From positions 1 through 39,149 of the forward strand of contig CANGXU010000015.1 of the NCBI GenBank assembly GCA_947457885.1: a stretch of DNA of 39,149 bases. Reading direction: 5' to 3'. This document shows, piece by piece, positions 5,314 to 18,698 of the stretch. The position numbers and the translations under genes were made by a program. The notes under the pieces are model-generated. The model was not told the origin of the DNA. It was given only the letters and a program-made list of their open reading frames with translations, and made no database searches. The DNA comes from Betaproteobacteria bacterium (lineage in GTDB: Bacteria > Pseudomonadota > Gammaproteobacteria > Burkholderiales > CAIKXV01). Position 1 is the stretch's first letter; each line of letters opens with the position of its first letter.

Positions 5314-5329
5314 GCAGATCAGGATCTGC
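5314..5329. terminator. Inverted repeat between convergent genes
   Basis: A perfect inverted repeat, GCAGATC-AG-GATCTGC, sits in the 11-base gap between hemF and the Ser/Thr kinase gene and overlaps the kinase stop codon. It could form a six-base-pair stem with a four-base loop in either transcript. There is no T-run on either side, so intrinsic termination is only a possibility. Confidence 0.3.
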
Positions 5330-7244
5330 GCCGCCGCAGCCCGAGGCGTTCGCCGAGTGCGCGGACGTGCTCGAGCCAGTGGCCCGGCAATGCCAGCCTC
5401 GGGGCCGCGGACGGTTCGGGCGCCTGGCGCCGGACCAGCAGCGGTGCCTGCTCGAACTGCTGCGCACGCTCCATCGCCGCGATCAGATGCCCGCGCAGGC
5501 TCTTCAGCACCACCGGCTTGTTGATGAAGCGGAAGATCTGCGCTTCGTTGATCAGGCCGATCATCAGTTCCGAATCGGATGCCTCGGTGACCACCAGTGT
5601 CAGCAGTTGCGGGTGGTCCTGCTTCAGTGTCTTGATCAGGTTCGCATTGTCGGAAGGGTTGCCGGTGTCGATGTCGAACAGCACGACCGCGATATCGCCT
5701 GCAGCCAGTTCGCCCAGTGCGGCTTCCGGACCGCTCGCCTGCCGTACCGGCGCGACGTCGGCCATCAGTTCGCGCGTGGAACGGTACAGTTCGCCGTTCT
5801 CGTCGACGACCAGGAGGGCCCGGTCGGGCTGCATCTGTAGCGACGGGGGGGGCGCAAGGTCGGCCAGTTCGATCGAAACCGCGACCGCCTCGCGCACGAT
5901 CGAGCGCAGTTCGTTGTTGTCCCAGGGCTTCGCGACGAAACGGTAGATCTCACCGTCGTTGATGGAGCCGACGATCGCCGCCAGGTCGGCATACCCGGTC
6001 AGCAGGATGCGCATCGAACCGGGCGCGATCTCTTTCGCGCGACGCAGCAGCTCGACGCCGGTCATGCCCGGCATGCGCTGGTCGCTGACGATGGCATTCA
6101 CGCGATACTTGGTGATGAACGCTAGTGCGCGCTCACAATCGCTGGTCGCGAACACGTGATAGTCGGTGCGGAACACCGACTTCAGCGCACTCAGGATACG
6201 TTCCTCGTCGTCAACCACCAGCAGCCGTGGCTTGTGCGCCGAGGAGATCGGCCGCGCGGCACTGCGCGGGCCGGGGAACGTGCTGCCCGGCGGCACGGTG
6301 TACTGGCGCCGCAGGGCCGCCAGCCGGCTGCCTGCGCCAGCCAGCCCTGTCATCAGCACGCCTGCGGCCGGCCCCGGCAGGGCGTCGCCGGGCGTGGCGT
6401 CCCCGGTCAGCGCGAGGCTGTCCACGATACCCTGCGCGAACAGCGTGCCGAACTCCGCGGCGCTGGTGAAACGGTATTCGATCGGCTTGGCCAGCGCGGT
6501 CAGTACGACCTCATCGAGCGTGGCCGACGCGTTCGCGTTCAGGCGCGAGGGCGGGATCGGCAGCGTCTCGAGGTCGAGCACCTGACGCATGATCTGCGGC
6601 GTACCACCGCTGTAAGGTCGGATGCTGGTGAGCAGCTCGTAGGCGATCACGCCTGCCGCGTACAGGTCGGCCGCCGGTCCGGCCTGCTGGCCGAGGAACT
6701 GCTCGGGGGCCATGTAGTACGGCGTGCCGAACATCTGCCCGCTCTGGGTCAGGTTGGACGACTCGATGCGGGCGATGCCGAAGTCGGTGATCTTCACGCG
6801 GCCGTCGGCGTTGAGCAGTATGTTCGCCGGCTTGATGTCCCGGTGCACGACTCCCTGCGCGTGGGAGTGCGCAAGCGCATCGAGCAGTTCGGCCATGATG
6901 CGCGCGACCTCGCGCAGCGTGAACCGGCGCCGTGCCGCGAGTTCCTGGTGCAGCGAACAGCCTTCCACCAGCTCCATTGCGATGAACGCGGTGTCGCCGT
7001 CCTCGCCGTATTCGAAGACCTGCACGATGTTCGGGTGGACCAGCCGTCCGGCTGCCTGCGCCTCGCGCCGGAAACGGTCGAGCGTGGCCGTCTGCTCATC
7101 GAACGGCAGCGAGGTGCGGCCGATGGCCTTTATCGCCACGGCACGCTCGATCGCGGTGTCGAAGCCGCGGTAGACCAGGCCCATGCCGCCGCGCCCGATG
7201 ACCGCGTCCACCCGGTACTTGCCGATGCGCTCCGGAAGCATCAT
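5319..7244 (-). CDS. Ser/Thr protein kinase with two receiver domains (SK-B)
   Basis: Predicted soluble signalling kinase of 641 residues. The N-terminal Hanks-type kinase domain (about 10-270) has the glycine loop GRGGMG (17-22), ATP-anchoring Lys39 in VAIK, catalytic loop HRDIKPAN (134-141), DFG (154-156) and APE (179-181), so it looks active. A Pro/Gly/Ala-rich linker (about 275-335) leads to receiver domain 1 (340-455) with acidic pair Asp344/345, phospho-acceptor Asp388 in SDQRMPG, Thr416 and Lys439. Receiver domain 2 (476-592) has DE at 481-482, probable acceptor Asp524, Thr553 and Lys576. No transmembrane or PASTA segment is seen. Its ATG overlaps the stop of the histidine kinase gene upstream (ATGA), implying coupling and a functional partnership. 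It is paralogous to the kinase at 9076-11007. The phosphorylated targets cannot be inferred. Confidence 0.88.
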   Translation of the reverse strand: MMLPERIGKYRVDAVIGRGGMGLVYRGFDTAIERAVAIKAIGRTSLPFDEQTATLDRFRREAQAAGRLVHPNIVQVFEYGEDGDTAFIAMELVEGCSLHQELAARRRFTLREVARIMAELLDALAHSHAQGVVHRDIKPANILLNADGRVKITDFGIARIESSNLTQSGQMFGTPYYMAPEQFLGQQAGPAADLYAAGVIAYELLTSIRPYSGGTPQIMRQVLDLETLPIPPSRLNANASATLDEVVLTALAKPIEYRFTSAAEFGTLFAQGIVDSLALTGDATPGDALPGPAAGVLMTGLAGAGSRLAALRRQYTVPPGSTFPGPRSAARPISSAHKPRLLVVDDEERILSALKSVFRTDYHVFATSDCERALAFITKYRVNAIVSDQRMPGMTGVELLRRAKEIAPGSMRILLTGYADLAAIVGSINDGEIYRFVAKPWDNNELRSIVREAVAVSIELADLAPPPSLQMQPDRALLVVDENGELYRSTRELMADVAPVRQASGPEAALGELAAGDIAVVLFDIDTGNPSDNANLIKTLKQDHPQLLTLVVTEASDSELMIGLINEAQIFRFINKPVVLKSLRGHLIAAMERAQQFEQAPLLVRRQAPEPSAAPRLALPGHWLEHVRALGERLGLRRRRS

Positions 7245-9004
7245 GCCGAGGCCGCCTGCACGCCGGTGCGCGGCAGCCGGATGCTGAACGTGGTGCCCAG
7301 CCCCGGGCGCGACGCCACGTCGATCCGGCCACCGTGCTGGGCGATGATCTTGTAGCAGATCGACAGCCCGAGGCCGGTGCCCTGACCCACGCCCTTGGTG
7401 GTGAAGAACGGATCGAATATCCTGGGCAGCACCTCGGGCTGGATGCCCGCGCCGGTGTCGATGACCTCCAGTATCAGCTCCTGTTCATCGCCGCGGGTGG
7501 TGAGCGTGATGGTGCCGCCGTCCGGGCCGATCGCCTGTGCGGCATTGGTGATCAGGTTGAGCAGGACCTGGTTCAGCTGCGATGGCGAACCGACCAGGTG
7601 ACCGTCGGTCCCGAACCGGCGCTCGATGTGCACCGCTTTCAGCAAGTGCTGCGCCAGCCGCAGCGTGCTGTCGATGCCTTCGTGTACGTCGAAGCGCTGC
7701 ACCTTGCCGCGATCGAGACGGCTGAAGTCGCGCAGGTGGGTGACGATCTGGCCGATCTGGTCGACACCGTACAGACCATCCTTCACCAGGTCTCCGAGTT
7801 CGGCGACCGCCGTGCTGCCACCGAGCCCGCGCGCCGCAGCGGACAGTTGCGCGAGCTGCAGATCGAGCATCGCGTCAGGGGTTTCGCCCGAGTCGAGCAT
7901 CGCCAGCAGCTTCTCGCACTCCCCGGTCATGCGGCCGATCGCATCGAGCCGGCCATCGACCGAGCCGAGGCTGTTCTTGACGTAGGCGATCGGGGTATTG
8001 ATCTCGTGGGCGACGCCGGCCACCATCTGGCCAAGCGAGGACATTTTCTCGGACTGGATCAACTGCGCCTCCGAATCCTTGAGGTGGGCCAGCGCGTCCG
8101 ACAGTTCACGCGTGCGCTGTTCGACCTTGCCCTCGAGGTTTTCGTTGGCCGCGTGCAGGGCGCCGTTGATGCGCGCGATCACGCGGTAGCTCGCCACCAG
8201 CCGCGATGCGATCCAGCCCAGCAGTACGAGGAGGGCGGCAGAATAGAACAGCAGGTAGGTGCGGAAGAGCTGCTGGCGCTGGATGGTGGCCTGGACCTCG
8301 GCCGCGAACGCGGTCGTCATCGCACCCAGTCGCGGGCCCGCCGTCGAAAGCGCGAAGCGTTCGAGCGCCGATTCGAGTTGTGACTTGCCGTCGAGTACCG
8401 CGCGTGCCGGCTCCAGCATGGCGGAGTCGGCTGACAGCCGCGCGAGCGCCGCCTCGACCTGCGGCCGGCGCCGAACTCCCGCGTCGCCCCAGAACGCCAG
8501 CAGTTCGGCGGCCGCGGCCTCTGGTGGGTGCAGAGCGCCCTGGCCCACGCCGGCATCGGTGCGGATTGCGCTGTTCGCGACGGCCGACGACAAGGCCTCG
8601 CCCAGGCCGGCTGCAGCGCGGCTGATCGATGCGCCCAGCGCGATGCGATCCGCGATCGCGGCGTCGACGCCGGGAAGGTTCGCCGCGAGGGCCGGGCTGC
8701 CGGTGGCGGCGGCGAGGGCCTGCAGGTCGGACATTGCGCGCCGGATCGAGGGTACGATGTTGGCATCGGCCTGGAGCGCCTGCGTCGGTTCGGTCTTCGC
8801 ACGCGCCACGGCGAGGTCCCAGCGCGCGGCCAGTTCGTTCAGCAGCTGCAGCTTGCCCGCGGCTTCGACGCGTGCGGTATCGTCGGTCTGGCGCGTGTTC
8901 CAGGCGAGCCACGCCGCCGCTGCGACCAGTGCGACGGTAGCCAGCACATACAGCGCCGCGCGCCAGGCCGGCACGGGCGCAGTGTCACGTCTGAGGACGG
9001 TCAT
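7241..9004 (-). CDS. Membrane sensor histidine kinase (HK-B)
   Basis: Predicted inner-membrane histidine kinase of 587 residues. Transmembrane segments at about 14-35 and 248-270 flank a roughly 210-residue, Ala-rich, probably all-helical periplasmic domain. A coiled linker without an obvious HAMP follows. The dimerisation/phosphoacceptor motif is GVAHEINTP with His333. The ATPase domain has N-box Asn483/487, DTGAG (516-520), FDPFFTTK and GTGLGLS (542-548), so all catalytic boxes are present. The periplasmic part resembles that of HK-A at 11072-13036 (shared pattern L-x-E-L-x-A-R-W-D) and may be a DAHL-like helical sensor, but this needs a profile search. It overlaps the start of the receiver-bearing Ser/Thr kinase by four bases, so the likely phosphotransfer partner is that protein's receiver domain. 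The ATG at 9004 lacks a strong ribosome binding site. Confidence 0.9.
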   Translation of the reverse strand: MTVLRRDTAPVPAWRAALYVLATVALVAAAAWLAWNTRQTDDTARVEAAGKLQLLNELAARWDLAVARAKTEPTQALQADANIVPSIRRAMSDLQALAAATGSPALAANLPGVDAAIADRIALGASISRAAAGLGEALSSAVANSAIRTDAGVGQGALHPPEAAAAELLAFWGDAGVRRRPQVEAALARLSADSAMLEPARAVLDGKSQLESALERFALSTAGPRLGAMTTAFAAEVQATIQRQQLFRTYLLFYSAALLVLLGWIASRLVASYRVIARINGALHAANENLEGKVEQRTRELSDALAHLKDSEAQLIQSEKMSSLGQMVAGVAHEINTPIAYVKNSLGSVDGRLDAIGRMTGECEKLLAMLDSGETPDAMLDLQLAQLSAAARGLGGSTAVAELGDLVKDGLYGVDQIGQIVTHLRDFSRLDRGKVQRFDVHEGIDSTLRLAQHLLKAVHIERRFGTDGHLVGSPSQLNQVLLNLITNAAQAIGPDGGTITLTTRGDEQELILEVIDTGAGIQPEVLPRIFDPFFTTKGVGQGTGLGLSICYKIIAQHGGRIDVASRPGLGTTFSIRLPRTGVQAASA

Positions 9005-9075
9005 CTGAAGAATCCGGCACGCACCGATCGTCCGACGCTCCCTCCACCGTCGCCGATGCCCTCACCCGAGCCTGA

Positions 9076-11007
9076 TCACGATGCGGCCGGTATCGAGATC
9101 GCAGGCAACCCGGCTTCCGGCACTGCCGGCAGCCCGGCATCCGGTAGCGTCGACTGCCGTACCATCGGGGCTGGTCGGTACATCTGGGCCAGCTCGGGCG
9201 ACTCGCGCAGCAGTTGGGCCCTTTCGAGGGCAGCCAGCAGGTGCGAACGGATCAGCTGCTGGTTCAACGGCTTGCTCAGGAAGCGGAAGATCTGCGCCTG
9301 GTTGATCAGTTCGATCATCAGCTCCGAATCGGATGCGCCAGTCACCACGATCGAGAGAATCCCGGGCTTCTCCTGCTTGAGGGTCTTCAGCAGCGCGATG
9401 CCTTCCGCACCGGTGTACTCGACATCCATCAGCACGATGGTCACCGGGTGCTGGTCGATCTGGTCCATCGCGGAGTCGGCGTCGATCGCATGCCGGATCT
9501 GGCATACGCCCACCAGCATTTCCTTGACCGAACGCAACAGCTCGTAGCTGGGATCCACCACCAGCACCGCCATCTCCTGGCGCAATGCCGTGTTGACCCG
9601 CATCACCCGCCGCTCGCCCACCGTGAGGCCGATCTCGACGGCCTCGCGCACGATCTGCTTGAGGTCGCGGTTGTTCCATGGCTTGTTGATGAAGCGGAAG
9701 ATCTCGCCCTCGTTGATCGAGCCGACGATCGCGTTCAAGTCGGAGTAGCCGGTGAGCAGCAGCCGCATCGACGTCGGCGAGGTGATCTTCGCCCGGCGCA
9801 GCAGTTCGACGCCCAGCATCTCGGGCATGCGCTGGTCGCTGATGATCGCATGCATGTGGAACTTCTCGACGAAGCGCAGGGCATGGTCGCAATTACTCGT
9901 CGCGAAAACGTGGAAATCGTCCCGGAACAATGCCTTCAGCGAATTGAGGATGCGCTCCTCGTCGTCCACCACCAGCAGACGCGGCTTGTGCGCCGAGGAC
10001 ACAGGCACGCCCGGCGTCTTCGTCGTGATCGGGCTGTCGCGCTGCGGCGCCGATGCCGTGCCGCCGCCACTGGTCGTGTCGCGCAGCAGGCGTGCGGCAG
10101 CCGCCAGATTACGCGTGGCCCTGTCGCTGAGCGGCGCAGGCTCGATCGCGTCGCCAACCACTCGCAGCGTCGACTCGATTCCCCGCTGGAATGCGAGCCG
10201 GAATTCCGCTGCGTTCTGGAAGCGCTCCGCCTGCCGCTTCGCCAGCGCCTTGAGGACAGCTGCGTCCAGATCGGCCGAGATGCGCGGGTCTACCAGCGAC
10301 GGAGGGGGAACATTGACGTCGGGATCCATCACCTGACGCATCACGAACGCCGTGCTGCCCGAAAAGGCCCGCTGGCCGGTGAGCAGTTCATAGGCGACCG
10401 TACCCGCGGAATAGACGTCGCTGGACGGGGTGGCGGTGTCGCCGTTGATCAGCTCGGGCGCCATGAAATGCGGCGTGCCCAGCGGTTCCTTGTTCACGAT
10501 CATGCGTGTCGACTCGACATGTGCGATGCCGAAGTCGGTGACCTTGATCCTGCCGTCGTTGGTCAGCAGGATGTTCGCCGGCTTGATGTCCTGGTGGATG
10601 ACGCCGTTCTGGTGCGCATACTCGAGCGCCGACAGCAACTGCTCGACGATGGAGCCGATCTGCCTGAGGCCGTAGCGGCGCCGCTCGAGCAGCCGCTGGT
10701 GCAGCGTCTTGCCGGCAACGAGCTCCATCGCGATGAAGGCGACTTCCTGGCTCTCGCCGTAGTCGTAGACCTGCACGATGTTCGGGTGCATCAGCCGGCC
10801 GGCAGCCTGGGCCTCACGCTTGAAGCGCTCGAGGATACCCATCGCCTGCTCGGGATCGAGTGCGCGCTTGATCAGCGCCTTGATCGCGACCGGCCGCTGG
10901 ATCGTGGAGTCGAAGGCCGAGTAGACGGTCCCCATGCCGCCCCGGCCGAGGATGCCGTGGACTTCGAACTTGCCGATGGTGGCGGGTAGCGGGCCGATGG
11001 CACTCAT
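9076..11007 (-). CDS. Ser/Thr protein kinase with two receiver domains, HQD variant (SK-A)
   Basis: Paralogue of the kinase at 5319-7244, 643 residues from the ATG at 11007. The frame runs 46 codons further upstream, but that stretch is Arg/Pro-rich and unlike the paralogue. The kinase domain (about 12-275) has GRGGMG (21-26), Lys43, DFG (158-160) and APE (183-185). The catalytic loop reads HQDIKPAN (138-145): the usual HRD arginine is Gln139, making it a non-RD kinase. Receiver 1 (343-458) has Asp348/349, acceptor Asp391 in SDQRMPE, Thr419 and Lys442. Receiver 2 (479-595) has only Asp485 of the acidic pair, with probable acceptor Asp528, Thr556 and Lys579. A Pro/Ala-rich tail with a short AGLPA repeat ends the protein. 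It follows HK-A by 64 bases and precedes HK-B by 71. No phosphatase gene is adjacent. Confidence 0.87.
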   Translation of the reverse strand: MSAIGPLPATIGKFEVHGILGRGGMGTVYSAFDSTIQRPVAIKALIKRALDPEQAMGILERFKREAQAAGRLMHPNIVQVYDYGESQEVAFIAMELVAGKTLHQRLLERRRYGLRQIGSIVEQLLSALEYAHQNGVIHQDIKPANILLTNDGRIKVTDFGIAHVESTRMIVNKEPLGTPHFMAPELINGDTATPSSDVYSAGTVAYELLTGQRAFSGSTAFVMRQVMDPDVNVPPPSLVDPRISADLDAAVLKALAKRQAERFQNAAEFRLAFQRGIESTLRVVGDAIEPAPLSDRATRNLAAAARLLRDTTSGGGTASAPQRDSPITTKTPGVPVSSAHKPRLLVVDDEERILNSLKALFRDDFHVFATSNCDHALRFVEKFHMHAIISDQRMPEMLGVELLRRAKITSPTSMRLLLTGYSDLNAIVGSINEGEIFRFINKPWNNRDLKQIVREAVEIGLTVGERRVMRVNTALRQEMAVLVVDPSYELLRSVKEMLVGVCQIRHAIDADSAMDQIDQHPVTIVLMDVEYTGAEGIALLKTLKQEKPGILSIVVTGASDSELMIELINQAQIFRFLSKPLNQQLIRSHLLAALERAQLLRESPELAQMYRPAPMVRQSTLPDAGLPAVPEAGLPAISIPAAS

Positions 11008-11071
11008 CTGGGTCGAACCTGGGTCGAAAAGGGGCTGGCTTGGAAACGGTGGATGGTGCGTTGCGGACCGA

Positions 11072-13036
11072 TCACGGCGCGGACAGCGCTGCGGGCATGG
11101 TCGGGGCGCTGCCATCTGCGGTCGCCGCCGGTGCCGGCGGGTCATCGTCCTCGACGCTGGCAGCAGACTGGTTCGCGGGCAGGAGCACGGTGAACGTGGT
11201 GCCTTCGCCGGGGCGGGAGTGCACGAGGATCTTGCCCCTGTGCTGGTCGATGATCTTGAAGGAGATCGACAATCCGAGGCCGGTGCCCTTGCCGGTGTCC
11301 TTGGTCGTGAAGAACGGGTCGAAGATTCGCGGCAGCACGTCGGGCGGTATGCCCTTGCCGTTATCGCGTACCTCGATCATCACGCTGTGCCCGACCGCCT
11401 TGGTGGTCAGCGTGATCAGGCCGGCACCGGGGCCGCGCTCCTCGATCGCCTGCGCGGCGTTGGTGACCAGGTTCAGGAACACCTGGTTCACCTGCGACGC
11501 CGCACACAGCACCGGCGGCAGCGTTCCGAACAGCTTGCGTACCTCGACGCCCTTCAGCAGGTGACGGGCGAGCAGCAGCGTGCTCTCCAGGCCCTGGTTC
11601 ACGTCGAATACCTGCACCTTCAACCGGTCGAGGCGGCTGAAATCCTTCAGGTTGAGCACGATCTCCGCGATCCGGTCGATGCCGTGCAGGCCGTCCTGCA
11701 CCAGCAGCGCCAGCTCGCCCAGGGTGTTGCGGTTGCGCATGGCTTCGAGGTCGCGGTCTACCCGTGCGAACTGTTCGCGCAGTTGCTGCTCGGGAGTGTC
11801 GGTCGACTGCAGCATGCGCAGCAGCTGGTCGAAATGCTCGATGAGGTCCACGATCGTGCCGAGGCGGTCATCGACCATGCCCAGGTTGTTCTTCACGTAG
11901 GCCAGGGGGGTGTTGATCTCATGCGCGACGCCGGCGACCATCTGACCCAGCGAGGACATCTTCTCGGACTGGATCAGCTGCGTCTCGGACTGTTGCAGTT
12001 CCGCCAGCGCGCTGGACAATTCCGCGGTTCGCGCAGTCACGCGCCGGTCGAGCGACTCGTTGATGTCCTTCAGGTCGTCGTTGACCTGGTTCAGCATCCG
12101 GTAGCTCTGCGCCAGCCGCCAGCCGAAGTAAGCCAGCAGGGCGAGCAGGGCGGCTGCATACCAGATCAGCGCCGTGCGGTAGCGCTGCTGTTCCGCGGCC
12201 GCAACCCGCAACTCGGTCTCGAAGCCGGTGATGACCGCGTCGAGTTCCTGCCCGGCGGTCGATTCCGAGATCACCTTGAACAGTTCGACCGACAACTGCT
12301 TGCGGCTCACCACTTCACGGCCCAGCTTGACGAGGGCTTCGCGCGCGATGGTGAGCCGGGCCGTCGTGTAGTCGGGCCGCGCCTCGCCGATCGCGGTCAG
12401 TGCGTCGTTGATCGAACGCGCGCGTTCAGTGGAGCCATCGATCGCGAAGGCGCCGAGGTCGGCCGCCGCCTGCGTGGCCACGCGGTCGAGATTCAGCAAT
12501 GCCTGCCGGGTCGTCTCGTCGACCCGGCGCGTGGTCCGCAGGGCCGAGAGGTATTCGATGAACCACTGCTGCGCCTCCGGCAGGCTGGTAGTGACGAAGT
12601 TCGACTCGGACAGAAAGCGCACCGTCACCGCGTTCTTTTCCTGGAACGCGCCGATCATGTCGGGAAGCTTGTCCTGCAGCGTCGAGGAAGACAGCCTCGT
12701 GCTCGACTGCTGCAGTGCGCGCAGCGTCTTGCCGACCATCGGTACGAGGTTCACCGCCGACTCGTAACCGCGCTCGGTATCTGTCGCGGAGCGCAGGAGG
12801 AGGGTGTCCCAGCGCGCCTCGAGTTCTTTCAGGGCGCGCAACTGGCCGCTGATCTCGACCACTGCGCGTTCGTCGAGCGGCCGCGTCTTCCAGTACACGA
12901 AGGCGAGGGCGCCGAGCAGCAGCACCGTCACCAGCACGGCCGCACCGATGCGCGACCAGCCGCGGATCGGAAGCGCGGGCCGATTCGCCGGAGATCCGGC
13001 GCCTGGCTTTGCGGGGCGAAGGGCGAATCGAAACAC
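11072..13036 (-). CDS. Membrane sensor histidine kinase (HK-A)
   Basis: First gene of the four-gene signalling run, 654 residues, with a GTG start at 13036 preceded by an AGAGAGG-type ribosome binding site about ten bases away. A basic cytoplasmic N-terminus leads to a transmembrane segment (about 29-49), a 230-residue helical periplasmic domain, and a second segment (about 288-306). The phosphoacceptor motif is GVAHEINTP with His372. The ATPase domain has N-box Asn522/526, DNGKG (558-562), FDPFFTTK and GTGLGLS (584-590). A Pro/Ala/Asp-rich tail follows residue 620. The cytoplasmic half is very like HK-B, including the shared SEKMSSLGQMVAGVAHEINT block. The signal is unknown. The cognate receiver is most simply that of the kinase encoded immediately downstream, though crosstalk with the second module is plausible. 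Confidence 0.9.
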   Translation of the reverse strand: MFRFALRPAKPGAGSPANRPALPIRGWSRIGAAVLVTVLLLGALAFVYWKTRPLDERAVVEISGQLRALKELEARWDTLLLRSATDTERGYESAVNLVPMVGKTLRALQQSSTRLSSSTLQDKLPDMIGAFQEKNAVTVRFLSESNFVTTSLPEAQQWFIEYLSALRTTRRVDETTRQALLNLDRVATQAAADLGAFAIDGSTERARSINDALTAIGEARPDYTTARLTIAREALVKLGREVVSRKQLSVELFKVISESTAGQELDAVITGFETELRVAAAEQQRYRTALIWYAAALLALLAYFGWRLAQSYRMLNQVNDDLKDINESLDRRVTARTAELSSALAELQQSETQLIQSEKMSSLGQMVAGVAHEINTPLAYVKNNLGMVDDRLGTIVDLIEHFDQLLRMLQSTDTPEQQLREQFARVDRDLEAMRNRNTLGELALLVQDGLHGIDRIAEIVLNLKDFSRLDRLKVQVFDVNQGLESTLLLARHLLKGVEVRKLFGTLPPVLCAASQVNQVFLNLVTNAAQAIEERGPGAGLITLTTKAVGHSVMIEVRDNGKGIPPDVLPRIFDPFFTTKDTGKGTGLGLSISFKIIDQHRGKILVHSRPGEGTTFTVLLPANQSAASVEDDDPPAPAATADGSAPTMPAALSAP

Positions 13037-13192
13037 GGGCAGCGAACCTCTCTGAGGTGTCTGGACCTAACGGATCGCGCCGCCCTGACTTGAGAAAGCA
13101 GCGCCGTGCAGCGGGGCGGTCCGGCCGCTGGCCGCGCGACGCGGACCCTGGGAACTCGTTAATGCTGAAACTTCTTCAGGAATCAACGCCAA

Positions 13193-13206
13193 GTAGCTTA
13201 GGCTAC
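13193..13206. promoter_or_regulatory. Inverted repeat in divergent promoter region
   Basis: GTAGC-TTAG-GCTAC is a perfect five-base inverted repeat in the roughly 215-base region between the start of HK-A (left, - strand) and the yqaA-like gene (right, + strand). A second weaker repeat (CTGAA/TTCAG) lies about 25 bases to the left. Either could be an operator for one of the divergent units. No convincing sigma-70 promoter was identified here. Confidence 0.25.
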
Positions 13207-13251
13207 ATGGAAAGTCTCGTCCAGCATCTCCTTCTGGAGCGGGACCCGCCG

Positions 13252-13689
13252 ATGAACGATCCCACTGTCCTGAGCCTGTTGTTCCTGTCCGCCCTGGTCG
13301 CCGCCACGGTGCTGCCGATGCAGTCCGAGGCGGTCCTGGTTGGCCTGCTGCTGGCTGGCCAGCAGCCCGTGTGGTTGCTGTTACTGGTCGCAACTGCAGG
13401 AAACGTGCTGGGATCGGTCGTCAACTGGTGGCTTGGTCGCGGTATCGAGCGTTTCCGGGGGCGCCGCTGGTTCCCGGCCAGTCCGGAGGCTCTAGACCGC
13501 GCCACCAGGTGGTACCGGCGCCATGGACGGTGGTCGCTGCTGCTCAGCTGGGTGCCGATCATCGGGGATCCGCTGACGGTCATTGCCGGCGTGCTGCGCG
13601 AACCGCTGCCCGGTTTCCTGCTGCTGGTCACGCTCGCCAAGGGTGGGCGCTATCTGCTGCTGGCGTTCGGCACTGCGGCACTGTCCTGA
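13252..13689 (+). CDS. yqaA: YqaA/DedA-type small inner-membrane protein
   Basis: A 145-residue membrane protein matching the size and layout of E. coli YqaA (about 142 residues, SNARE-associated/DedA-like). Hydrophobic segments lie at about 5-22, 28-52 and 90-142, with motifs LPMQSEAVLVGLL, GNVLGSVVNWWLGRG, WYRRHGRWSLLLSWVPIIGDPLTVIAG, and a C-terminal GGRYLLLAFGTA. The E-rich LP-x-x-SE and G-x-x-x-G-x-x-x-N-W-x-x-G signatures are typical of the family. DedA-family proteins are linked to lipid transport and membrane homeostasis, but the role of YqaA itself is not settled. The ATG at 13252 gives the family N-terminus, with a GGGA seven bases upstream. In-frame upstream ATGs at 13207 and earlier would add unrelated residues. 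It is divergent from the kinase operon and convergent with livF. Confidence 0.85.
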   Translation: MNDPTVLSLLFLSALVAATVLPMQSEAVLVGLLLAGQQPVWLLLLVATAGNVLGSVVNWWLGRGIERFRGRRWFPASPEALDRATRWYRRHGRWSLLLSWVPIIGDPLTVIAGVLREPLPGFLLLVTLAKGGRYLLLAFGTAALS

Positions 13690-13716: not shown

Positions 13717-15217
<1,501 letters not shown>

Positions 15218-15221
<4 letters not shown>

Positions 15222-16378
15222 GGTGCGGACCCTGCGTCGGCGCTGCCGCCAGTGCGGTGGCCGGTTACCGCGTTGTCTGCGGTGGCCCGTGCCGCCGCGA
15301 ACTCACGGTGCCGGATTGCCGAGGGCCAGAGCCCCGCCGGCCGCCAGCGCATCACCACCACGAGCGCTACGCCGAACAGCAGTAACCGCAGGTCGGACGG
15401 TTCGATATGCACCTGCCCGAACAGCCAGCGCTGGAGCGGGCCGATGTAGCGCAGGGCCTCGGGCAGCGTCACCAGCAGTGCGGCACCCAGCACCACGCCG
15501 CGGATGTGTCCCATACCGCCGAGCACCACCATGCAGAGCACCATGATCGATTCCATCAGGCCGAAGCTCTCCGGGCTGACGAACCCCTGGAAGCTGGCGT
15601 ACAGGCTGCCGGCGATGCCGCCGAAGCTGGCGCCCATCGCGAACGCGAGCAGCTTCAGGTTGCGGGTGTTTACGCCGGACGCCCGGGCGGCGGATTCGTC
15701 CTCGCGGATGGCGACCCAGGCGCGGCCCACGCGCGAATGCTGCAGCCGCGCCGATACGAACACCACCAGCAGCGTGAGTACGAGGAACAGGTAGTAGTAG
15801 TTGTACAGGGAAGGGATCGACAGCGGGCCGATCGCATGTGCCTTGGCCATCGACACACCCGCGACCTCGATCGGCCGGATCATCGTGATGCCCTGCGGGC
15901 CGTTGGTGAGGTTGAACGGCGCATTCATGTTGTTGAGGAAGATGCGGATGATCTCGCCGAAGCCCAGCGTGACGATCGCCAGGTAGTCGCCACGCAGCTT
16001 CAGCGTCGGTGCGCCGAGCAGCATGCCGAACAGCCCGGCGACCAGTGCGGCCGCGGGCAGCAGCAGCCAGAACGGCAGGTGCAGGCCGAAGTGCGGGGAG
16101 GCGCACAGCGCGTAGAGGTAGGCACCGACAGCGAAGAACGCGATGTATCCGAGGTCGAGCAGACCGGCGAAGCCGACCACGATGTTCAGGCCGAGTGCGA
16201 GCATCGTGTAGAGCATGACGAGATCGAGCACGCGTACCCAGGCACGGCCGAGCAGGGCATCGACCAGGAACGGCGCCAGCAGCAGGGCGGCGGTGGCCAG
16301 CGCGAGCAGCGCACCCTGCGCCAGCGGCGAGCGCCCGGCGGCATCCGACATCCCCGCCGGGATCGGCAGCCTAGGCAC
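15218..16378 (-). CDS. livM: Branched-chain amino-acid ABC transporter permease LivM
   Basis: Inner-membrane permease subunit, 386 residues with about eight to ten hydrophobic segments. Family motifs include LGLNIVVGFAGLLDLGYIAFFAVGAY near the N-terminus and the EAA-like loop RVGRAWVAIREDESAARASGVN (contacting the ATPases), followed by KLLAFAMGASFGGIAGSLYA. A short hydrophilic, Ala/Gly-rich tail follows the last helix. The start given is a GTG at 16378, which overlaps livH by eight bases. An ATG at 16351 would give MSDAAGRSPL and is an equally reasonable start. It pairs with LivH to form the channel. Confidence 0.93.
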
Positions 16379-17297
16379 GCTCGGCCACCCGTTCGCCGAG
16401 CAGGCCGGAGGGCCGGAAGACCAGTACCACGATCAGCACCGCGAACGCGAAAACGTCCTGGTAGTGGCTGCCCAGGAAGCCACCGGTCAACGCACCGATG
16501 TAGCCGGCGCCGAGGCTCTCGATCACCCCGAGCGCGAGGCCTCCGAGCATCGCACCGGAGATGTTGCCGATGCCGCCCAGCACTGCCGCGGTGAACGCCT
16601 TGAGGCCGAGCATGAAACCCATGTGGTAGTGCGCCTGGCCGTAGTAGCCGGCGATCATCACCCCGGCCACCGCGGCCAGCGCCGAGCCGATCATGAAGGT
16701 GAACATGATGATCCGGTCCACGTTCACGCCCATCAGTCCGGCCAGTGCCGGGCTCTGGGACGTGGCGCGCATCGCGCGGCCGAGCCGCGTGCGGTGTACC
16801 AGAAGGAGCAGCGCGCCCATCAGTACTACGGTCAGCGCGACGATGAGTACCTGGGTGCCTGTCACGGTCGCGCCGAGCACTGCATGCGGCTCGTTGGGCA
16901 GCAGCGGCGGGAAGGAAATGTACTGACGACCCCAGACGATCATCGCCACGTTCTGCAGCACGATCGACATCCCGATCGCGCTGATCAGCGCGGTGAGGCG
17001 CGGCGCGTCGCGCAGCGGCCGGTAGGCGATCCGTTCGAGCAGTGCGCCGAGCAGCATGCAGGCCGGTATCGCGACGGCGATACCGGCGATCATGACCGCC
17101 GGCGCGGGCAGCCCGCTGCCGGTTCCGATCGCCACGATCACCGAGATCGCGATCATCGCGCCGATCATCACCACTTCGCCGTGCGCGAAATTGATCAGGC
17201 CCAGGATGCCATAGACCATCGTGTAGCCGAGCGCGACGAGCGCATAGATGCTGCCGAGCACGATGCCGTTGATCAGTTGCTGGACGAAGATGTCGAT
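16371..17297 (-). CDS. livH: Branched-chain amino-acid ABC transporter permease LivH (non-canonical start likely)
   Basis: Inner-membrane permease with the family motif GYTMVYGILGLINFAHGEV, the loop RLGRAMRATSQSPALAGLMGVN, and about seven to eight hydrophobic segments. LivH proteins normally begin M-D-I-F-x-Q-Q-x-I-N-G-x-x-L-G-S. Here that sequence is encoded (DIFVQQLINGIVLGS), but the codon where Met is expected, at 17295-17297, is ATC. No ATG, GTG or TTG occurs between it and the stop at 17382-17384 upstream. A GGAG lies eight bases before this ATC, ideal for initiation there. The first standard start is GTG at 17261, giving 296 residues but removing part of the first helix. The coordinates follow the ATC. 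A rare start codon, a point mutation or a base error would all explain it. Confidence 0.85.
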   Translation of the reverse strand: MDIFVQQLINGIVLGSIYALVALGYTMVYGILGLINFAHGEVVMIGAMIAISVIVAIGTGSGLPAPAVMIAGIAVAIPACMLLGALLERIAYRPLRDAPRLTALISAIGMSIVLQNVAMIVWGRQYISFPPLLPNEPHAVLGATVTGTQVLIVALTVVLMGALLLLVHRTRLGRAMRATSQSPALAGLMGVNVDRIIMFTFMIGSALAAVAGVMIAGYYGQAHYHMGFMLGLKAFTAAVLGGIGNISGAMLGGLALGVIESLGAGYIGALTGGFLGSHYQDVFAFAVLIVVLVFRPSGLLGERVAERA

Positions 17298-17381
17298 CGT
17301 TTCGGCTCCGCTAATGAAAACGCCACCGGCGACACGGCCTGTTGTCCGTGCGCCGATGGCGGCGGGAGGATGCCCGGGAGC

Positions 17382-18698
17382 CTACTTGGCGGGGGCGCTG
17401 GCCGGGGCTGCCGGTGCCGGTGCCGGTGCAGGGCTGGCTGGCGCGGCTGCCCCGCCCGGAGCGGGGGGCGCCGCCGAAGCCGCCGCCGGGGCCGAGGCGG
17501 AGGCTGGTGCCGCGCCGCCAATGGTCTCGATGGCCGTCCAGCCATCACCCTTGACCGCATACATCGTGACGCCGCCGGCCTTGATGTCGCCCTTCTCATC
17601 GAAGGCGATGTTACCGGTCACGCCCTGGCGGTCGATCTTCGACAAGGCTTCGAGGATTCTGCCCGGTTCGATCGAGTTGGTCGCCTTCATTGCATCGATG
17701 ATGGTCCAGGTGGCGTCATAGGCGAACGGCGCGTAGATCTGGATCTCGCCGAACTTCGCCTTGAACCGCGTGGTGAACTGCTCGCCGCCGGGCATCCTGT
17801 CGATCGGCAGGCCGGGCGAGGAGGCGATCACGCCCTGCGCGGCCGCACCGGCCAGCTTGATGAACTGTGCACTCTGCGCGCCGTCTCCACCGAGCAGCTG
17901 CACGCCGAGTTTCAGCGTGCGGACCTGCTCGGCCATCGGACCGAACTGGGCGTCCATGCCGCCGAAGAACAGGACGTCAGGCTTCTTGCCGCGCAGGGTG
18001 GTCAGGATGGCGCGGAAATCGGTCGCCTTGTCGTTGGTGTATTCGCGTCCGACGATGGTGCCGTCAGCCGCCTTCACGGCCTTCTCGAACTCGTCGGCGA
18101 GACCTTGCCCGTAAGCCGTGCGGTCATCGATGATCGCGATGCGCTTGCCAGCCAGTTGCTTCACTGCGTACTCGCCCAGCACCTTGCCCTGCTGCAGGTC
18201 GTTCGCGATCACCCGGTAGGTGGTCTTGAAGCCCTGAGCCGTGTAGGCGACCGCCGTGGCCGATGGCGACACCTGCGGAATGCCGGCGTCGCTGTAGATG
18301 CGCGAGGCCGGTATGCTGGCGCCGGAGTTCATGTGCCCGACCACGGCGACCACTTTCCTGTCTACGAACGACTGTGCGACGACCGTGGCCTTGGTGCCGG
18401 AGGCTTCGTCGTCCTCCGGGACCAGTTCGAACTTGATACGGGTGCCGCCGATGATGATGTTGGCGGCATTGGCCTCCTCGATCGCCAGTCGGGCACCGTT
18501 CTCGACGTCCTTGCCCAGGTGCGCCTGCGGGCCGGTCAGCGGGGCGGCTACTCCGATCATCACGGTCACTTCGGCTGGCGGCTTCGGTGCTTCGGCGACG
18601 GGTTTCGGCGGCTCTTCCTTGCCGCAGCCGGCGACGATCAGTGCAGCGGTAGCGGCAAGGGCGAGCGCACGGGTCGCCCGGTGGAACAGGTGGGCCAT
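17382..18698 (-). CDS. livK: Substrate-binding lipoprotein of liv-type ABC transporter
   Basis: Periplasmic-binding-protein family, 438 residues. A positively charged hydrophobic signal peptide ends in the lipobox IVAG-Cys25, so the mature protein is probably a lipid-anchored binding protein, unlike the freely soluble E. coli LivJ/LivK. The binding fold (about 43-390) shows IGVAAPLTGPQAHLGKDVENG, the hinge-region VVAVVGHMNSGASIPAS, and DVLFFGGMDAQFGPM, typical of Leu/Ile/Val-binding proteins. The last 43 or so residues are a low-complexity Ala/Pro/Ser tail encoded by GCCGGT-type repeats, which is unusual for this family. An AGGAGA ribosome binding site lies five bases before the ATG. It is the first gene of the operon. 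The ligand is not certain. Confidence 0.9.
   Translation of the reverse strand: MAHLFHRATRALALAATAALIVAGCGKEEPPKPVAEAPKPPAEVTVMIGVAAPLTGPQAHLGKDVENGARLAIEEANAANIIIGGTRIKFELVPEDDEASGTKATVVAQSFVDRKVVAVVGHMNSGASIPASRIYSDAGIPQVSPSATAVAYTAQGFKTTYRVIANDLQQGKVLGEYAVKQLAGKRIAIIDDRTAYGQGLADEFEKAVKAADGTIVGREYTNDKATDFRAILTTLRGKKPDVLFFGGMDAQFGPMAEQVRTLKLGVQLLGGDGAQSAQFIKLAGAAAQGVIASSPGLPIDRMPGGEQFTTRFKAKFGEIQIYAPFAYDATWTIIDAMKATNSIEPGRILEALSKIDRQGVTGNIAFDEKGDIKAGGVTMYAVKGDGWTAIETIGGAAPASASAPAAASAAPPAPGGAAAPASPAPAPAPAAPASAPAK
17410..17427. repeat. Three GCCGGT tandem hexamers
   Basis: Three exact copies of GCCGGT lie inside the coding sequence of the Ala/Pro-rich tail of the binding lipoprotein and encode alternating Ala-Pro on the - strand. 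Hexamer gain or loss would keep the frame, so tail length could vary between strains. Confidence 0.6.

Follow-up and report, generated by a model that had tools for sequence, protein, structure and literature searches.

The window analysed here is a 39,149-nucleotide stretch of a betaproteobacterial genome (CANGXU010000015.1), contig 15 of a 289-contig, 4.0 Mb draft. Between positions 5319 and 13036, on the minus strand, it carries four genes that are transcribed in the order HK1, STK1, HK2, STK2. HK denotes a membrane histidine kinase and STK a soluble Hanks-type Ser/Thr kinase with two C-terminal receiver domains, REC1 and REC2 (STK-REC-REC). A preliminary description had read these same-strand genes as two copies of a pair, and this is confirmed by the four open reading frames (ORFs) and by their Pfam domains: both STKs have Pkinase and two Response_reg stretches, and both HKs have matches to DAHL, HisKA and HATPase_c, with DAHL over its cut-off in HK1 only. 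The genes and their parts are as follows.

11072-13036, minus strand: HK1, membrane histidine kinase comprising a first transmembrane helix (TM1), periplasmic helical sensor, TM2, dimerisation and histidine phosphotransfer domain (DHp) and HATPase_c (Pfam, hydropathy, AlphaFold2 of the sensor)
about 12179-12889, minus strand: HK1 sensor
11921-11923, minus strand: His372 in the DHp of HK1
9076-11007, minus strand, in an ORF reaching to 11145: STK1, copy 1 (Pfam, alignment, start choice)
about 10171-10977, minus strand: Hanks kinase domain of STK1, with the linker next to it
10591-10593, minus strand: Gln139 of the STK1 HQD motif, a changed HRD (alignment, residue tally)
9625-9981, minus strand: REC1 of STK1
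9835-9837, minus strand: Asp391 of STK1 REC1, predicted phospho-acceptor (alignment tally)
9208-9570, minus strand: REC2 of STK1
7241-9004, minus strand: HK2, paralogous membrane histidine kinase (Pfam, alignments)
about 8264-8899, minus strand: HK2 sensor, shorter than that of HK1
8006-8008, minus strand: His333 of HK2, predicted phospho-acceptor
5319-7244, minus strand: STK2, copy 2, with a disordered linker (Pfam, AlphaFold2, residue tally)
about 6420-7226, minus strand: Hanks kinase domain of STK2, with Arg135 of HRD and activation-loop Thr166
5871-6227, minus strand: REC1 of STK2
6081-6083, minus strand: Asp388 of STK2 REC1, predicted phospho-acceptor (invariant in 98/98 proteins)
5454-5819, minus strand: REC2 of STK2

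Orthologues and the alignment make the ATG at 11007 a likelier start for STK1 than the ORF start at 11145. With this start HK1 and STK1 are separated by 64 nucleotides and STK1 and HK2 by 71, while HK2 and STK2 overlap by 4 nucleotides; of the overlaps or short gaps first reported, the HK2/STK2 overlap therefore stands, whereas HK1 and STK1 are divided by a gap. The paralogy noted between the copies amounts to 50% identity for STK1/STK2 and 46% for HK1/HK2. Both HKs have the HisKA phospho-acceptor His and the HATPase_c domain expected of histidine kinases, and their H-box, N, G1, F and G2 boxes are conserved in alignments. Each HK also has two strong TM-like hydrophobic peaks, found in the HKs only among the four proteins, in agreement with the two-helix membrane topology originally proposed. 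The four genes are far from a chance assembly, since orthologues of all four occur genus-wide without gene decay and evolve with ratios of non-synonymous to synonymous substitution (dN/dS) of 0.12-0.28.

HK and STK-REC-REC were not separated anywhere in our sample. Among 60 genomes, comprising the window's own and its relatives, the carriers of a full-length STK-REC-REC are the carriers of a full-length HK, which adjoins the STK on the same strand, and no full-length HK relative occurs in the genomes without STK-REC-REC. Across GTDB species genomes, a scan retained 80 loci; in 79 of these the sequence extends beyond the kinase gene on its upstream side, and in 79/79 the adjacent gene there is a homologous HK in the same orientation. 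The co-occurrence search suggested in the preliminary description thus finds the HK beside the STK throughout and, because the HK is upstream in all of these loci, the pairs are not usually encoded apart. Full-length STK-REC-REC proteins are present in about 57/399 sampled genomes of the order, across 14 families, and samples of 369 genomes from the class and 398 from the phylum contained none outside the order at an E-value of 1e-135. The pair is found in many little-studied freshwater and groundwater betaproteobacteria, and it stays together while neighbourhoods vary by lineage (liv transporter genes and hemF; rpe, gph and trpE as against apaG and mltA; ribD and ribE). Nearly all of the 80 loci are in assemblies titled betaproteobacterial, the exceptions bearing broader or doubtful titles. 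Public records of metagenome-assembled genomes titled Chitinophaga pinensis or Bordetella parapertussis, apparently misnamed, also hold pair loci (L046, L049, L052, L080, L085, L100).

A related arrangement occurs in genome G056 (L041, 7961-10226, minus strand, C9), where an HK of the same transmitter family adjoins a REC-REC protein without a Ser/Thr kinase domain. This HK has a soluble, CBS-like N-terminus, a call made by eye with no profile. An HK plus REC-REC cassette can therefore exist without a Ser/Thr kinase, which suggests that an older cassette of this type either gained the kinase or lost it.

Conservation of individual residues was tallied in 98 aligned proteins (8 copy-1, 9 copy-2 and 81 others). 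In REC1 both acidic residues, the Asp, the Thr and the Lys are all present in 98/98. REC2 retains the Asp (97/98), Thr (95/98) and Lys (93/98), but its second acidic position is acidic in 13/98 and not acidic in 85/98, so that the receiver aspartates listed in the preliminary description belong to a complete site in REC1 and to an incomplete one in REC2. Because the missing residue binds Mg2+ directly in CheY-type receivers, REC2 is probably a degenerate receiver and a poor phosphate acceptor. In the AlphaFold2 model of STK2 the kinase and the receivers are predicted with confidence as domains, and the linker between them (residues 287-334) is disordered.

All 98/98 proteins keep the catalytic Lys, HRD Asp, Asn, DFG Asp and APE Glu, and each thus has the residues of a Hanks-type Ser/Thr kinase. 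Three further features, the Arg of the RD (Arg-Asp) motif, the activation-loop Thr and the Gln of APEQ, are kept in 9/9 copy-2 proteins and 81/81 others and lost in 8/8 copy-1 proteins, which have HQD, no Thr and APEL. STK2 is accordingly an RD kinase and STK1 a non-RD kinase, and the initial statement that all kinase boxes are present is right for the catalytic residues and wrong for the HRD Arg and activation-loop Thr of STK1. That the copies are equal and redundant is ruled out by the restriction of these losses to copy 1. As a rule RD kinases require phosphorylation of the activation loop, whereas their non-RD counterparts work without it; with both the RD Arg and the loop Thr gone, STK1 is therefore probably uncoupled from this step, yet still an enzyme. 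The nearest solved kinases to the STK2 model are PknB and PknA, which share its RD Arg and activation-loop Thr, and the Thr of LTQSG in STK2 aligns with the activation-loop VTQTG of PknA. Unlike PknA and PknB, however, the STKs have no TM-like peak by hydropathy and no PASTA domain by Pfam (the PknB_PASTA model scores 292 bits, below its cut-off of 450), sensing being placed in a separate HK, and STK1 differs further in being non-RD.

The sensor of HK1 scores 46.6 bits against DAHL, for which the cut-off is 38, and that of HK2 25.6 bits, below it. AlphaFold2 models the HK1 sensor as all-helical (predicted template modelling score, pTM, 0.78), and the model matches the periplasmic domains of TorS, PilJ and McpS with Z-scores of 15-16 over 211-227 residues. 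These matches outrank unrelated helical ones, but high scores are common among helical bundles, and the Foldseek E-values of the matches are just above 0.001. On this modelling the HK1 sensor is a TorS/McpS/PilJ-like helical domain, alike in predicted fold to those proteins and to Pfam DAHL at an identity of only about 10%. TorS, a hybrid kinase, contains a receiver itself, whereas HK1 has none and its putative receivers are in the separate STK. Crystal complexes of TorS with TorT, its periplasmic binding protein partner, are among the matches.

The duplication is confined to the genus of the window. In a quick tree, with long branches elsewhere but none inside the two-copy clade, the copy-1 and copy-2 sequences form two monophyletic sister groups, with full support in the Shimodaira-Hasegawa-like approximate likelihood ratio test (SH-aLRT); one further locus, L120, groups in the copy-2 clade. 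Genes of the system are present in 10/11 genomes of the genus, the window's own counted, and the exception (G007) is 84% complete. Comparisons between species give dN/dS values of 0.12-0.17 (STKs) and 0.20-0.28 (HKs), and all four genes are therefore under purifying selection. With copies only 50% and 46% identical the duplication is old; that identity, the monophyly of the copies and purifying selection rule out a recent duplication or an assembly artefact. By region, identity between the copies is 70% in the DHp, 67% in REC1, 46% in REC2 and 26% in the sensors. Since the DHp and REC1 are the best-conserved regions and the sensors the least conserved folded part, cross-talk between the pairs through a little-changed interface, under diverged sensors, is plausible.

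We consider it likely that the HK phosphorylates REC1 and so switches the tethered Ser/Thr kinase, making the pair a two-component system with a Hanks-kinase output. The membrane HK would read a periplasmic signal via its helical TorS/McpS/PilJ-like sensor, autophosphorylate on the H-box His and transfer the phosphate to the REC1 Asp of the partner STK. REC1, on its flexible linker, would then alter the activity of the kinase towards its presumed substrates. In STK2 and the single-copy relatives this would most likely proceed via dimers, in which RD kinases trans-phosphorylate the activation-loop Thr as PknB-type kinases do, and REC2 would probably be used for docking or dimerisation and not as another full phosphate acceptor. 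The pair was duplicated once, at the base of the genus; the sensors then diverged while the presumed transfer interface stayed similar, and STK1 became a non-RD kinase, whose activity should be independent of phosphorylation in the activation loop. The idea in the preliminary description that sensing resides in a separate membrane HK is supported by the periplasmic domain of the HK, the inseparable pair and the REC1 site. Its overall interpretation survives in this respect and in the linkage, and has to be revised in that REC2 is degenerate and the two copies are asymmetric and not interchangeable.

Several observations weigh against receiver control of the kinase or against parts of it. The STK2 model contains no confident arrangement of the receivers relative to the kinase (pTM 0.49). 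Covariation of the HK DHp with REC1, REC2 and kinase columns (92 pairs, effective number of sequences 43) did not single out REC1; the kinase columns scored equally high, presumably owing to shared ancestry, and covariation was set aside as partner evidence as it could not discriminate between the three. The conserved Asp, Thr and Lys of REC2 mean that this domain could be phosphorylated after all. As for a signal connected with the liv transporter genes that lie upstream of HK1, the pair is away from such genes in 26/69 relatives, and livF adjoins hemF without the pair in five genomes.

One variant of receiver control, whose likelihood is not to be added to the others, holds that STK1 is no enzyme but a pseudokinase or scaffold, controlling STK2 through the formation of hetero-dimers. 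The HRD Arg, activation-loop Thr and APEQ Gln were indeed lost together, but the VAIK Lys, catalytic Asp, Asn and DFG Asp are kept in 8/8 copy-1 proteins at a dN/dS of 0.12-0.15, and non-RD kinases are commonly active; we regard this variant as doubtful. The tandem copies might also be the two tiers of a kinase cascade governed by His-Asp transfer, in which non-RD STK1, freed from activation-loop control, phosphorylates Thr166 in the STK2 activation loop, with a logic resembling that of yeast Sln1-Ssk1-Ssk2. We think such a cascade unlikely; if it exists, two HKs with diverged sensors would feed one bacterial Ser/Thr cascade.

Control could instead run in the reverse direction, with the Ser/Thr kinase modifying its own receivers or the HK and thereby tuning a two-component pathway whose output lies elsewhere. 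That Ser/Thr kinases of bacteria engage in cross-talk with two-component regulators is a known theme (review, PMC4601284), and the G056 locus supplies receivers without a kinase output. However, the neighbourhoods of the pair in relatives show no additional conserved regulator, and kinase and REC1 are always fused, both with all their catalytic residues, which makes this direction improbable. That the receivers are a mere phosphate sink or scaffold, the kinase being constitutive or driven by autophosphorylation, would suit the long, variable, predicted disordered linker and the already degenerate REC2, but it is very unlikely given that REC1 is the best-conserved part of the protein and remains joined to the kinase throughout the order-wide set, a fusion that a sink would not need.

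Among the bacterial Hanks kinases that have been studied, most have a built-in sensor, and the output of most response regulators is directed at DNA or cyclic nucleotides. A dedicated HK-receiver-Hanks kinase pair present in about 14 families of a single order and never split in our sample would thus directly bridge the two main bacterial phosphorylation systems, and the genus-wide duplicate with one RD-less kinase would be a natural experiment in the handover from activation-loop to receiver control. A precedent for receiver control is SypE of Vibrio fischeri, a serine kinase-REC-serine phosphatase protein acting on the STAS protein SypA, which phosphotransfer from RscS switches from kinase to phosphatase (PMC10120452). 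In both cases an HK-phosphorylated receiver would control protein serine phosphorylation; the proteins described here differ in having the Hanks (Pkinase) fold and two C-terminal receivers, with no PP2C phosphatase domain by Pfam and no STAS gene among the annotated conserved neighbours. Receivers are likewise fused to Ser/Thr kinases in the REC-PP2C-STYK proteins predicted, and predicted to be HK-controlled, in Campylobacterota (PMC9239204), but those have an N-terminal receiver and a fused PP2C, whereas ours have two C-terminal receivers, no PP2C and a dedicated adjacent HK. Cyanobacterial STKs have recruited HisKA and GAF domains (PMC2176072). Such Hstk proteins couple Ser/Thr and histidine kinase in one polypeptide, while here HK and STK are separate ORFs, linked via receivers. 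The word 'receiver' is absent from a 2005 survey of STK architectures, and our literature searches for a characterised Ser/Thr kinase-receiver protein beside an HK returned predictions only, consistent with the earlier remark that no characterised system of this layout is known, although the bare architecture may have been listed before.

The absence of a PP2C phosphatase near the pair, also remarked on initially, was borne out: the assembly has a single PP2C_2 match, which lies on a different contig, no dedicated search for SpoIIE-type phosphatases having been made. That match (L130, 6060-8220, minus strand) has an FHA-domain protein as its neighbour, with a GAF-T2SSE ATPase and a GAF-HD protein encoded close by. 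The cell therefore has a possible reversal enzyme and phospho-Thr readers, though not beside the pair. The two other Ser/Thr kinases of the assembly (L131, 3954-5546, plus strand; L132, 4190-5530, minus strand) are soluble Pkinase-cNMP_binding proteins, with the cNMP_binding domain C-terminal.

Upstream of HK1, in the same direction, lie ATP-binding cassette (ABC) transporter genes recognised by Pfam and NCBIfam.

13717-18698, minus strand: livKHMGF-type ABC transporter genes
17382-18698, minus strand: liv substrate-binding protein
16371-17261 and 15218-16378, minus strand: liv permeases
14421-15221 and 13717-14421, minus strand: liv ATPases

Genes of this type precede the HK on the same strand in 43/69 relatives with enough upstream sequence. 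The commonest liv-HK junction among the 43 is a 4-nucleotide overlap, and transcriptional coupling is therefore likely in the relatives in which the genes adjoin. The liv genes are a possible source of signal, the sensor perhaps being fed by a binding protein, but the link is weak; as an obligate partner the liv operon is ruled out by the relatives in which the pair lies elsewhere and by the liv-hemF adjacency without it. In the window livF and HK1 are separated by an oppositely oriented gene (13009-13689, plus strand) for a VTT-domain (DedA/TVP38-like) membrane protein, and other members of the genus have a livF-HK gap of about 640-690 nucleotides at this position.

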